Of a stretch of 43,574 nucleotides of DNA, positions 40,724 through 43,574 are shown in pieces. Source of the stretch: Prochlorococcus sp. AG-363-A03 (lineage in GTDB: Bacteria; Cyanobacteriota; Cyanobacteriia; PCC-6307; Cyanobiaceae); the NCBI GenBank assembly GCA_003280445.1, contig QCEW01000002.1:67969-111542 (forward strand), read 5' to 3'. Made by a program: the position numbers and the translations under genes. Position 1 is the first letter of the stretch. Every line of letters begins with the position of its first letter. Under the pieces are notes generated by a model. It ran no database searches. It was not told the origin of the DNA and was given only the letters and a program-made list of their open reading frames with translations.

Positions 40724-41476
40724 TTAGAGTTTTTCACTCTGATAACACGAGATCACTCTTCCAGCAGATCTAAATTTAGATCTGTAAAAAGAACCAATTT
40801 TTCCAAGGTTAGGGGGAAATAAACCGTCAATCTCTATTCCATTATGCCCATTAGTTACCCCAGAACTATGAATATAAAAACCATTCTCAATATGCAATCC
40901 AACGTGAGTACATTTTTCAGATGATCCAAAGAACAGTAAATCTCCAGGTTTTAATTCTTCGCCTAAAGCTTCAATATCCAATGCAATATTTTTACAGAAT
41001 TTTTCCTGCTGATAAGCATCTCTTGGTATCCAAATACCTGAACTTGCAAAAGCAGATTGAACCAAACCAGAGCAATCAAAATTTGGACCAATAGTTCCAC
41101 CCCACAAATATTCATTACTCATTTTTTTCGCAGCCTTAGTCCAAGACAATACGCTAGGAATCCTAGAAATAATTTGCTCTTCAGTAAAACATTCAGATTC
41201 CCATGATTCTATTTTTGAAGCTTGATGAATTAATTCGGAAAATCTAAACCAACAAATATAGTCATCTTCCAAAAGACGAACTTTTACTCTATTAATAACT
41301 TCCTTATTTTTAAAATTAGATTTCAAACAATCAATCAATTGAAAACTCCTACCAATACTTGCTTGCGTAACTAATTCATCACTATTTTCACTTTTAAATC
41401 CATCCATATTTATTCGCAGTTTCCATAAACTTCCCAAAACAAATGAAGCTTTAGTTAGCAAAACCTCTAAGGTCAT
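40724..41476 (-). CDS. NlpC/P60 peptidoglycan endopeptidase
   Basis: A 250-residue cell-wall hydrolase. The start is ATG 41476 (MTLEVLLTKASF); the longer frame upstream overlaps the divergent neighbour. The C-terminal domain has the catalytic cysteine in NFDCSGLVQSAF, the histidine in THVGLHIEN, and HSSG as the third polar site. The N-terminal half may hold SH3-like binding modules (VRLLEDDYICWF). No clear signal peptide is seen. Substrate: peptide cross-links of peptidoglycan. Confidence 0.9.
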   Translation of the reverse strand: MTLEVLLTKASFVLGSLWKLRINMDGFKSENSDELVTQASIGRSFQLIDCLKSNFKNKEVINRVKVRLLEDDYICWFRFSELIHQASKIESWESECFTEEQIISRIPSVLSWTKAAKKMSNEYLWGGTIGPNFDCSGLVQSAFASSGIWIPRDAYQQEKFCKNIALDIEALGEELKPGDLLFFGSSEKCTHVGLHIENGFYIHSSGVTNGHNGIEIDGLFPPNLGKIGSFYRSKFRSAGRVISCYQSEKL

Positions 41477-41497
41477 ATTGTATTCTTCTCGAGCGCT

Positions 41498-42391
41498 ATG
41501 GCGTTCTACCGAAAAGACCCTGAGATGGCATTTTGCCTGCAAGGTCTCCTCGATAGGTTTGAAAAAGAAGGTCGACCAAACCTTCAGGAAAATATTGCAA
41601 TAACTTGGATTCGTTATGACAAGCAAAGTCCATCGACTTCTAGTGGATATGGGACAGGGTGGAATTCAAACAGAAATTTTTATCCTGCAAGCGTAGTAAA
41701 AATAGTTTATGCGTTGGCGACTCAAGTATGGCTTCAAAAAGATTTAATTGTTGACTCAGAAGAACTTAGAAGAGCATTGCATGAGATGATTGCAAACTCC
41801 AATAATGACGCGACTAGTTATATTTTAGATCTTTTAACAGGTACAACAAGTGGTCCATCTCTTAATGATTCAAACTATCAAGCATGGAAAGTACAAAGGC
41901 AATTGATTAACCACTGGCTATATGACCTCAGATGGCCTGAAATTAAACATTGGAACTGCAGCCAAAAGACTTGGAATGAAGGACCTTTTGGAAGGGATAA
42001 AGATTTTTATGGAAAAAAAAATGAGAATCGAAACATTATGACTACCGATGGGAGCGCCAGAATTTTTGAATCATTAATGACTTTTGAAATGCTCCCAAAA
42101 TTAGCAAGCGAGGATTTAATAAAAGTTTTTCAACGCTCACTTGATCCAGTTCGCCGCAAGCAAGATTTAGAGAATCAAGTAGATGGTTTTTTAGGAGCAG
42201 GACTCCCTTTGGCTTCTAAACTTTGGAGCAAAGCAGGTCTGATGAGTGAAGTTCGCCATGATGTCGCATGGTGGGAGGCGCCAAAGAAGAATCCCATGCT
42301 TGCAGTCGTTTTTACAACTGGAAAAGAATTAGTCAAAGATCAATTTTTACTCCCTGCAATTAGCAGTGAGTTAAACAAATTAGCTATTTAG
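41498..42391 (+). CDS. Serine hydrolase, beta-lactamase-like fold
   Basis: A 297-residue protein resembling class A beta-lactamase/DD-peptidase-type serine hydrolases. It has SVVK (S65, K68) as the active-site SxxK in NFYPASVVKIVYALA, SNND (101-104) in place of SDN, and SKAG near residue 245 in place of the KTG box. No signal peptide is visible. A start at M10 (41525) would also work. Housekeeping peptidase or esterase activity is more likely than antibiotic resistance. It is divergent from the NlpC/P60 gene with a 21-bp gap. Confidence 0.85.
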   Translation: MAFYRKDPEMAFCLQGLLDRFEKEGRPNLQENIAITWIRYDKQSPSTSSGYGTGWNSNRNFYPASVVKIVYALATQVWLQKDLIVDSEELRRALHEMIANSNNDATSYILDLLTGTTSGPSLNDSNYQAWKVQRQLINHWLYDLRWPEIKHWNCSQKTWNEGPFGRDKDFYGKKNENRNIMTTDGSARIFESLMTFEMLPKLASEDLIKVFQRSLDPVRRKQDLENQVDGFLGAGLPLASKLWSKAGLMSEVRHDVAWWEAPKKNPMLAVVFTTGKELVKDQFLLPAISSELNKLAI

Positions 42392-42518
42392 CAATGAATA
42401 AGATTCCAGCGAACAAAATAGATCCCAAAAGAAATCCAAGAGCCAAAAGCACAGCTATTATTGGTGTATTTAAGTAAACAGATATTGTTGCGAGTTGATT
42501 ACCCTTTGCTTCAGACAC
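42384..42518 (-). CDS. Small single-helix membrane protein (44 aa)
   Basis: A GTG-started 44-codon frame: a short polar head (SEAKGNQLAT), then ISVYLNTPIIAVLLALGF and LLGSILFAGILFIAK as a membrane segment. Its last 35 residues align without gaps to the C-terminus of the protein at 43289-43574, sharing SVxLNT and an FIA ending. That similarity is the main reason to call it real. No family name is known to me. It overlaps the convergent serine hydrolase by 8 bp. Confidence 0.65.
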   Translation of the reverse strand: MSEAKGNQLATISVYLNTPIIAVLLALGFLLGSILFAGILFIAK

Positions 42519-42642
42519 CTTTAAAACTCATAAAAATCATTTTTGATTAAAGCATCTAACTATGCCAAAAAACAAAAAAGTTTAACTGATAAAACAATTT
42601 TTAAAAAAATAAAGAATTATTTATTGATATCAAAAAAATAGT

Positions 42643-43197
42643 TCAAATAAAATTTGATTTTGGTCTCTTATTTTCTAAAACTTTAATATCTTTATCACTT
42701 TGACTTTCTATTATTGAACTTTCTTGGTTATCTATTTTTTCGTTTATTATTTGGTGATCTGCTTTAAGCAAATCATCATCTAATGAATTTATTTTATTTG
42801 ATTTATCTAAGTCTTTTTTATCAAGATTTTGTTGAATTAATGAATTTGTAGAATCTATATCCTTTAATTGGATTATATCTAAAACTTTATTTTCCTCAAC
42901 TTTAATAATTGAAGATTTACTCAATAAATTCAAATCAAATCTACCTTTTGCAAAAGATACTGAAGTAAATACTAGTATTGATCCTAAAATAATAATCAAA
43001 AAAATATTCGATAATAAACTATTTATTGGAGACCAAAATAATATTATTTTAGCATTTTCATTTTTCTGTTTAACCATATCAGCAGAGGGGCTTAAATCTA
43101 AAAAGATATCTTGATTAATCCAGCCTTTATTAGCTTTAGTATAGGGAGACTCACTTTTAGTGAAATCAAAAACCTCCTGGATTCTTTCTTTAAGCAC
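42643..43197 (-). CDS. Hypothetical single-pass membrane protein
   Basis: A 184-residue protein with a GTG start at 43197. The N-terminal 50 residues are soluble (ERIQEVFDFTKSE). One membrane helix lies near residues 62-82 (LSNIFLIIILGSILVFTSVS). The C-terminal 100 residues are highly charged and rich in Asp, Lys, Ile, Asn and Ser, probably disordered. It is very AT-rich. I recognise no family. It lies between two small proteins that resemble each other, all on the same strand. Confidence 0.6.
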   Translation of the reverse strand: MLKERIQEVFDFTKSESPYTKANKGWINQDIFLDLSPSADMVKQKNENAKIILFWSPINSLLSNIFLIIILGSILVFTSVSFAKGRFDLNLLSKSSIIKVEENKVLDIIQLKDIDSTNSLIQQNLDKKDLDKSNKINSLDDDLLKADHQIINEKIDNQESSIIESQSDKDIKVLENKRPKSNFI

Positions 43198-43288
43198 AGC
43201 TTAGGTTTATCTAAAACTACAAGTACGAAAACATAGCAGAAAGTCAGAATAAAAAAGTTACTTTCACACAGATTTTCGTGAAATTGAA

Positions 43289-43574
43289 TTACCCAGCAAT
43301 AAATACCATCGCAGAAAGAAGAATAGCTGCAGCCAAAATTCCTAAAGAAGCTATTCCAACGATCTTCCCTGTGTTTAAGGAGACGGATACAGTTAACAAC
43401 TCAGTTCTTGAGTCTCTTTTCTGTTGAGAATCAATTGGAGAGCGAGGATTGACTTTTTTGGTCGCGCTAGATGTTCTATCTTTAGCAGCTTTTTTCTCTG
43501 CTAAGGCTTTTTTCTCTGCAGCAGCTTTATTAGCTGCTTGAGCTTTCTTCTCTGCTAAGGCTTTTTTCTCTGCT
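43289..43574 (-). CDS. Ala/Lys-rich membrane protein (C-terminal part)
   Basis: Only the C-terminal 94 residues are in the window; the start lies beyond the right edge. The visible N-terminal part is a repeat of AEKKALAEKKA-type units, probably a helical or unordered charged stretch. A linker (KDRTSSATKKVNPRSP) and a terminal membrane helix follow (SVSLNTGKIVGIASLGILAA to FIAG). The helix aligns to the 44-residue protein at 42384-42518. The DNA repeats GCTAAGGCTTTTTTCTCTGC in the Ala/Lys part. Function unknown. Confidence 0.65.
   Translation of the reverse strand, partial: AEKKALAEKKAQAANKAAAEKKALAEKKAAKDRTSSATKKVNPRSPIDSQQKRDSRTELLTVSVSLNTGKIVGIASLGILAAAILLSAMVFIAG

Follow-up and report, generated by a model that had tools for sequence, protein, structure and literature searches.

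Three genes at the right end of the analysed stretch of Prochlorococcus DNA (43,574 nucleotides, hereafter the window) encode, as profile comparisons and a frame-background control show, a single family of one-helix proteins with a common C-terminal anchor, restricted to Prochlorococcus in the searches made. Three different N-terminal modules precede the anchor: almost nothing in a 44-residue protein, a 38-residue ESPYR..GW domain in the middle protein, and a hypervariable Ala/Lys/Glu repeat rod in the third (Table 1). The family and its architecture are well shown by these comparisons; the function is one that we infer. The three leftward frames were recovered at the positions where the sequence-only reading had placed them. 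The right-hand Ala/Lys gene is truncated because the assembly contig ends there (the window spans 67969-111542 and the contig stops at 111542). The full gene, which that reading had proposed to obtain, is thus missing from this assembly, but full-length relatives were recovered. The three-gene block adjoins genes for an NlpC/P60 and a Beta-lactamase2-like protein (window positions 40724-42391), and the 3′ end of the 44-residue gene overlaps the convergent beta-lactamase-like gene by 8 bp. Similar neighbours were seen in loci L062-L064. A scan for sigma-70 promoters found 5 promoter-like sites, where 5.2 were expected, and a terminator scan found none.

Table 1. Features of the three-gene block in the window, and members of a neighbouring protein family in other loci
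Feature	Position	Strand	Remarks
44-aa tail-anchored protein	42384..42518	(-)	GTG start; the smallest member, with a single AEKxG-like unit, LATxSVYLNT and one membrane helix
Juxtamembrane motif and anchor helix, common to the family, of the 44-aa protein (residues 9-44)	42387..42494	(-)	signature N-T-x9-G
184-aa middle protein	42643..43197	(-)	GTG start; ESPYR..GW N-terminal domain, one membrane helix, charged disordered tail
Conserved N-terminal domain of the middle protein (~residues 1-38; ESPYxxANKGW)	43084..43197	(-)	invariant E, F, S-P-Y, A, W in A3/A4 alignments
Long helix of the middle protein (residues 41-84), membrane span included	42946..43077	(-)	diverged anchor copy, F/YW-P replacing YLNT; AF2 helix 41-84, profile-profile 97.2%, clear anchor in 88-aa counterparts
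Ala/Lys rod protein, C-terminal 94 residues	43289..43574	(-)	5′ part absent: contig ends
Rod-protein copy of the shared anchor (SVSLNTGK + helix)	43295..43405	(-)	similarity search, profiles, signature
Tandem repeat encoding the rod, 18-bp (six-residue) unit, first part	43487..43574	(-)	period 18, 4.9 copies, cut by contig end
SPLYSYW...EPYKWENLYQSI family members	L063:7761-8246, L069:1541-2032, L071:8013-8354, L075:6357-6866, L076:421-909

When its own genome was queried with the 44-residue protein, the tail of the Ala/Lys protein aligned without gaps over residues 7-43 (37 residues, 43% identity, E 0.0013), a match that is weak taken alone. The sequence-only reading had described this C-terminal region as common to the two proteins, and both the profiles and the frame-background control agree with it. 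Alignments were built from 16 of the 44-residue proteins (A1), 10 rod tails (A2) and 16 middle proteins (A3). Profile-profile probabilities were 98.4% (A1-A2), 97.2% (A1-A3) and 85.5% (A2-A3), values that lean high because the comparisons were pairwise. A profile made solely from 44-residue proteins matched the Ala/Lys tails, down to E ~1e-12 per genome. In a control against 33,353 frames from 180 loci, the A1 profile scored 14.4-49.7 bits with the Ala/Lys rod tails and 45.9-53.0 bits with 88-residue middle proteins, and 12.4 bits with the best unrelated frame; most rods were far above this background but not all, the weakest tails lying near it. Since the Ala/Lys tails outscored unrelated frames, the similarity exceeds a chance hydrophobic match, which answers the doubt that it might be no better than between random helices. 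The signature [ND][TSA]x9G was present in 76/76 distinct 44-residue tails, 61/61 rod tails and 4/72 middle tails, and the window's own middle protein has no NT-x9-G signature. Within the LATxSVYLNT segment of the 44-residue proteins, LA and V.LNT were invariant in all 76.

The middle protein had been read as an unknown protein with one membrane span and a charged, probably disordered tail. The span and the tail were borne out, but the protein is a homologue of both flanking proteins. Its N-terminus, RERIxEVVDFAxTESPYRSANKGW, was conserved in every lineage having the middle gene. In four named loci (L137, L138, L140 and L143, with MIT 0701 among them) this N-terminus runs into an 88-residue protein, encoded directly behind a gene of the 44-residue type, which has S[IV]YWNTGI and a helix at its end. 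These counterparts, from MIT 0701/MIT9313-type genomes, join the same N-terminal domain to a copy of the anchor that is plain to see, and they make the middle protein the third member of the family. The window's lineage has a drifted anchor (FWSPINS), with a long disordered tail behind it. The AF2 model of the middle protein had a mean pLDDT of 63.5, with helices at residues 3-14 and 41-84 and a disordered tail, and a disordered tail beyond the membrane helix was present in most lineages. This tail terminates in TA[TVM]DLFQ[PS]K in many lineages (e.g. L186, L132, L136 and L154) and has lost that ending in the window's genus (KSNFI); the terminal peptide looks like a putative binding motif. At L170:6198-6782, presumably the locus of an SS120-type genome, the middle-gene match carried one in-frame TAA in the profile search, yet a 194-residue frame is open there.

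Complete relatives of the Ala/Lys gene encode hexads of the form A-[ED]-K-K-A-[ALQ], then a linker, SVSLNTGK and one hydrophobic helix. The full rod gene in L051 holds 23.4 copies of a 36-bp repeat. In 18 rods, the rod and linker together measured 180-875 residues, with 27-50% Ala and a net charge of +27 to +65 (the L056 rod is cut by its contig). The main periodicity was 6, 12 or 18 residues in 16 of them and 11 residues in 2. At 0.15 nm per residue, such rods would be 27-131 nm long if fully helical. Charge pairing at i/i+3,4 was above that of shuffled sequences in 17/17 rods (z 3.8-14.3), heptad power was 0.1-1.3 with no heptad hydrophobic signal, and Pro plus Gly numbered 0-5 in these 17 rods; the pattern is therefore that of a single alpha-helix and not of a coiled coil. 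Single alpha-helix (SAH) domains are described in the literature as charged, poor in proline and glycine, patterned by i/i+3,4 salt bridges and free of heptads. The rods share these features, charge pairing and lack of heptads being seen in 17/17, but differ in being net positive, built of Ala-rich hexads and tail-anchored in the membrane. Rod charge is not uniform, because a 908-residue frame in genome G092 is close to neutral for its length (+4.8 per 100). Rod frames within the window's genus ranged between 227 and 361 residues, the length differing between species. Adjacent hexads compared within 8 rods gave mixed pS/pN, and in 2 of the 8 pN was not below pS; we do not count this comparison as evidence of selection on the rod.

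Several rods and 44-residue proteins start alike with VAEKK, VAEKQ or VAEKN (VAEKQGNELA..., VAEKKGQELA...), and a protein of genus g30 has two such units. These shared starts suggest that the rod most likely arose by expansion, ahead of the old anchor, of the AEKK unit that begins the 44-residue protein. The repeats break assemblies: 27 of the 49 rods in the listed named loci run off a contig end, and the window too stops there. Rods are therefore systematically truncated in databases and easily overlooked, and many draft genomes of Prochlorococcus must lack their rod genes or contain them cut short.

Homologues beyond the strain, whose absence would have spoken against the sequence-only reading, were readily found. 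The 44-residue query matched 39 of the 41 genomes of the window's genus at E<=1, a few only marginally. Among 400 sampled genomes of its taxonomic family, A1 matched 120 (32/59 genera), A2 119 (31/59, including cross-matches to 44-residue proteins) and A3 83 (29/59). Strong rods, counted from A2 matches of at least 66 bits after dropping the weaker ones as 44-residue cross-matches, were present in 76/400 genomes, and strong middle genes in 82/400, a count that leaves out the weak A3 match of G080. All 76 rod genomes also have the middle gene, and six genomes (five of genus g30, and G153) have the middle gene without a rod. In this co-occurrence tally the A1 matches of G055, G056, G059 and G081 were dropped as rod-tail or broken, and the list of 44-residue genes omitted part of the genus of G154; the rod and middle counts are the ones taken from this tally. 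A second rod was found in 6 of the 76 (G041, G053, G092, G147, G166 and G217). A sample drawn across the class gave 9 matching genomes out of 194, all inside the window's taxonomic family. Of the 114 relatives in named records, 80 were listed, and 78 of these 80 were titled Prochlorococcus, one “Prochlorococcaceae cyanobacterium” and one “uncultured cyanobacterium”. Patterns matched 46 and 92 stretches in viral contigs, none of which encodes a relative, and the middle protein was unmatched in phage records. The module, whose neighbourhood the sequence-only reading had proposed to follow across picocyanobacteria, was restricted to Prochlorococcus within the searches made and had no wider spread.

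Within Prochlorococcus the members are unevenly kept. We take genomes G110, G002, G050, G117, G154 and G271 to be MIT9313, NATL2A, SS120, MIT9211, MIT9312 and AS9601, respectively, and the genus of G154 to be of the high-light type; the high-light and low-light labels are likewise our assumption. With these labels, low-light-type lineages keep the family, mostly as an operon of rod, middle and 44-residue genes, and high-light-type genomes keep in part a 44-residue remnant. In the genus of G154 only the 44-residue type was found, in 42 of 151 genomes (21/52 of those at least 90% complete), three of the matches being partial or marginal (G422, G438 and G477), and none of the A3 matches among the 400 genomes came from this genus. 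Genomes of genus g30 (MIT 0701/MIT9313-type) had no rod. The rod is not essential, because g30 is without it and the genus of G154 keeps only the 44-residue gene.

Rod and middle genes go as a pair. In the 80 listed named loci, 43 have rod, middle and 44-residue genes on one strand, 6 have a 44-residue gene facing the middle-rod pair, 26 have a lone 44-residue gene (several of these at contig ends), 4 have a 44-residue and then a middle gene, and 1 has two 44-residue genes. The rod and middle genes were on the same strand, with a gap of 8-126 bp, for 49/49 rods in these loci. The larger surroundings were not conserved between clades. For the 44-residue gene, pN/pS within the window's genus was 0.066 (300 pairs, 25 sequences). 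The rod tail gave 0.123 (210 pairs, 22 sequences), and a stretch of 80 residues near the N-terminus of the middle protein gave 0.330 (231 pairs, 22 sequences). Purifying selection acts on all three.

A TPR-repeat protein lies beside the G092 908-residue frame and beside the 59/88-residue pair of MIT 0701 (L065:5005-8568 and L068:5220-7045, 38% identity), a hint that the two sites go back to one location or that the TPR protein is a functional partner. In G057, of the genus of G154, the gene after the 44-residue gene (L075:5407-6030) encodes a 207-residue protein with tandem 11-residue repeats, EEDRLAIEKAK. A relative of it in L073 is without the repeat; this is a second charged-repeat protein beside a 44-residue gene, unrelated to the rod. 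An uncharacterised protein family (SPLYSYW...EPYKWENLYQSI) occurs near the 44-residue gene in several lineages, and three members scanned had no Pfam match.

The “small, undescribed membrane module” of the sequence-only reading fits a block that recurs in more than half of the listed named loci, is under purifying selection and is unmatched in Pfam, NCBIfam, PHROGs and PDB. The 44-residue and middle proteins matched nothing above chance in the first three libraries, and neither the 44-residue sequence nor the A1 and A3 profiles matched a solved structure at E<=10. Matches of rods to ClfA were rejected as low-complexity. The open-access literature held nothing that we could find on the family; print beyond open access may differ. 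The absence of PDB matches at E<=10 and of credible Pfam matches also led us to reject identity by sequence with a small subunit of a photosystem, cytochrome or NDH complex.

Three known kinds of protein bear some likeness to the rods. TolA has its membrane anchor at the N-terminus and a globular domain at the C-terminal end. It shares a long A/K/E-rich helix with the rods, to which its matches were marginal only (E 0.13 and 0.23, far below the cut-off); identity was rejected, as the rod anchor is C-terminal and full-length rods have no globular domain. Histone H1-like proteins (HC2, NF038053) are similar as Lys/Ala-rich polycations but, to our knowledge, have no membrane anchor. The 908-residue frame scored 35.6 and 62.6 bits, below the curated cut-offs of 40 and 80, and was the only one of four rods scanned to match; these matches are weak evidence because rods are low-complexity, and membership was rejected. 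Membership in the ElaB/YqjD family, which we take to be DUF883 in Pfam, was also rejected, no Pfam-model match being found for the 44-residue, middle or rod proteins. YqjD of E. coli is C-tail-anchored and its N-terminus associates with the 30S subunit, according to PMC10502375. The likeness to ElaB and YqjD lies in a single C-terminal membrane helix, a charged helical N-terminal part facing the cytoplasm (as would hold for the Prochlorococcus proteins) and a paralogous set of small proteins. The single C-terminal tail anchor without signal peptide is found in the rod and 44-residue proteins but not in the middle protein, where a long tail follows the helix in most lineages. The Prochlorococcus family differs in its SVYLNT-x9-G anchor, its rod of up to 875 residues of repeats and its confinement to Prochlorococcus. 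By analogy, the rod family may work like YqjD/ElaB, though not as a member.

We tentatively propose, as a possibility that we favour without holding it probable, a lineage-specific tail-anchored set in which the anchors co-assemble and the rod, a polycation in the cytoplasm, serves to dock a polyanion such as the ribosome, the nucleoid or a facing membrane. The rod and 44-residue proteins end 0-3 residues beyond the helix and have no signal peptide, and dozens of lysines precede the rod helix. Given this placing of the lysines and the very short stretch behind the helix, these proteins would be tail-anchored with a cytoplasmic N-terminus. The near-invariant LATVSVYLNT beside the membrane goes beyond the needs of an anchor. 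It points to contacts between proteins, probably those of the three relatives with one another, whose anchors may co-assemble via the conserved LATVSVYLNT-x9-G segment. Conservation of one helix face, as co-assembly might show, was not significant (helical conservation moment, p 0.75 and 0.25), so the evidence for co-assembly consists of the shared sequence and the operon. The rod would be a membrane-tethered polycation of tens of nanometres, with positive charges along a stiff helix. It could dock a polyanion to the membrane electrostatically, with ribosomes or the nucleoid as the likeliest partners and a facing thylakoid membrane next. The 44-residue member may be a subunit that spaces or caps the others, and the link between the array and a partner may be the ESPYR protein.

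The main rival, in itself unlikely, is that the rods act as a thylakoid spacer or zipper, holding stacked thylakoids together across a narrow cytoplasmic gap that would have to be free of phycobilisomes. Prochlorococcus is not known to have phycobilisomes, and the family was found only in Prochlorococcus in all searches and is best kept outside the genus of G154. Rods of 27-131 nm with net positive charge are also in its favour, as are the concentric thylakoid lamellae of Prochlorococcus described in PMC6395441. However, g30 genomes have no rod, and 44-residue proteins persist in many rod-less genomes. Improbable to a similar degree is that the proteins are small subunits of a Prochlorococcus-specific photosynthetic or respiratory membrane complex (e.g. 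a Pcb antenna-photosystem assembly), the rod being a decorated subunit. The size and extreme conservation of the 44-residue protein (LA and V.LNT invariant in 76/76, pN/pS 0.066) would suit a subunit, as would restriction to what is presumably the Pcb-bearing group, the genes that we take to be psaL and psaI 3-4 kb away in the window, and a presumed pcb gene near the 44-residue gene in some lineages. Yet no solved chain matched by sequence or profile, no credible small-subunit match was found in Pfam, the neighbourhood varies between clades, and only 42/151 genomes in the genus of G154 have the 44-residue gene although all photosynthesise.

A joint function may also be lacking, the family being a fast-drifting set of small proteins and the rod a selfish or neutral repeat expansion. 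The repeat does differ by lineage (six-residue in 16/18, 11-residue in 2/18) and loss in the genus of G154 is patchy, but purifying selection on all three members (on the tail in the case of the rod), a rod never separated from the middle gene in 76/76 rod genomes, and charge pairing kept while the rod sequence changes make this distinctly improbable. Surface or periplasmic rods, serving phage or grazer resistance or cell-wall organisation, are the most doubtful reading and seem very improbable. Rod length differs between species of the window's genus (227-361-residue frames), and NlpC/P60 and beta-lactamase-like genes adjoin the block there and in some other lineages. Against this, a signal peptide is lacking, the anchor lies at the C-terminus behind many lysines and should leave the N-terminus inside, and the cell-wall-like neighbours are not kept in genomes that we take to be of SS120, MIT9211 or MIT9313 type.

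A broader form of the docking proposal, which seems to us unlikely as a whole, is that Prochlorococcus evolved its own tethered-polycation system. Anchor-built rod arrays on the cytoplasmic face would staple thylakoids or park ribosomes or the nucleoid, with a tunable, fast-evolving rod length, and would have been kept in low-light and discarded in high-light lineages. The family itself is real and conserved in Prochlorococcus, is undescribed in all libraries searched, and has an unusual rod architecture made from known kinds of parts. Its importance lies in its limitation to Prochlorococcus in every search made, in the strong purifying selection on it and its split along lineages, and in the possibility that a polycationic rod with a tail anchor gives order to membranes, ribosomes or DNA in a photosynthetic cell that is among the most abundant.
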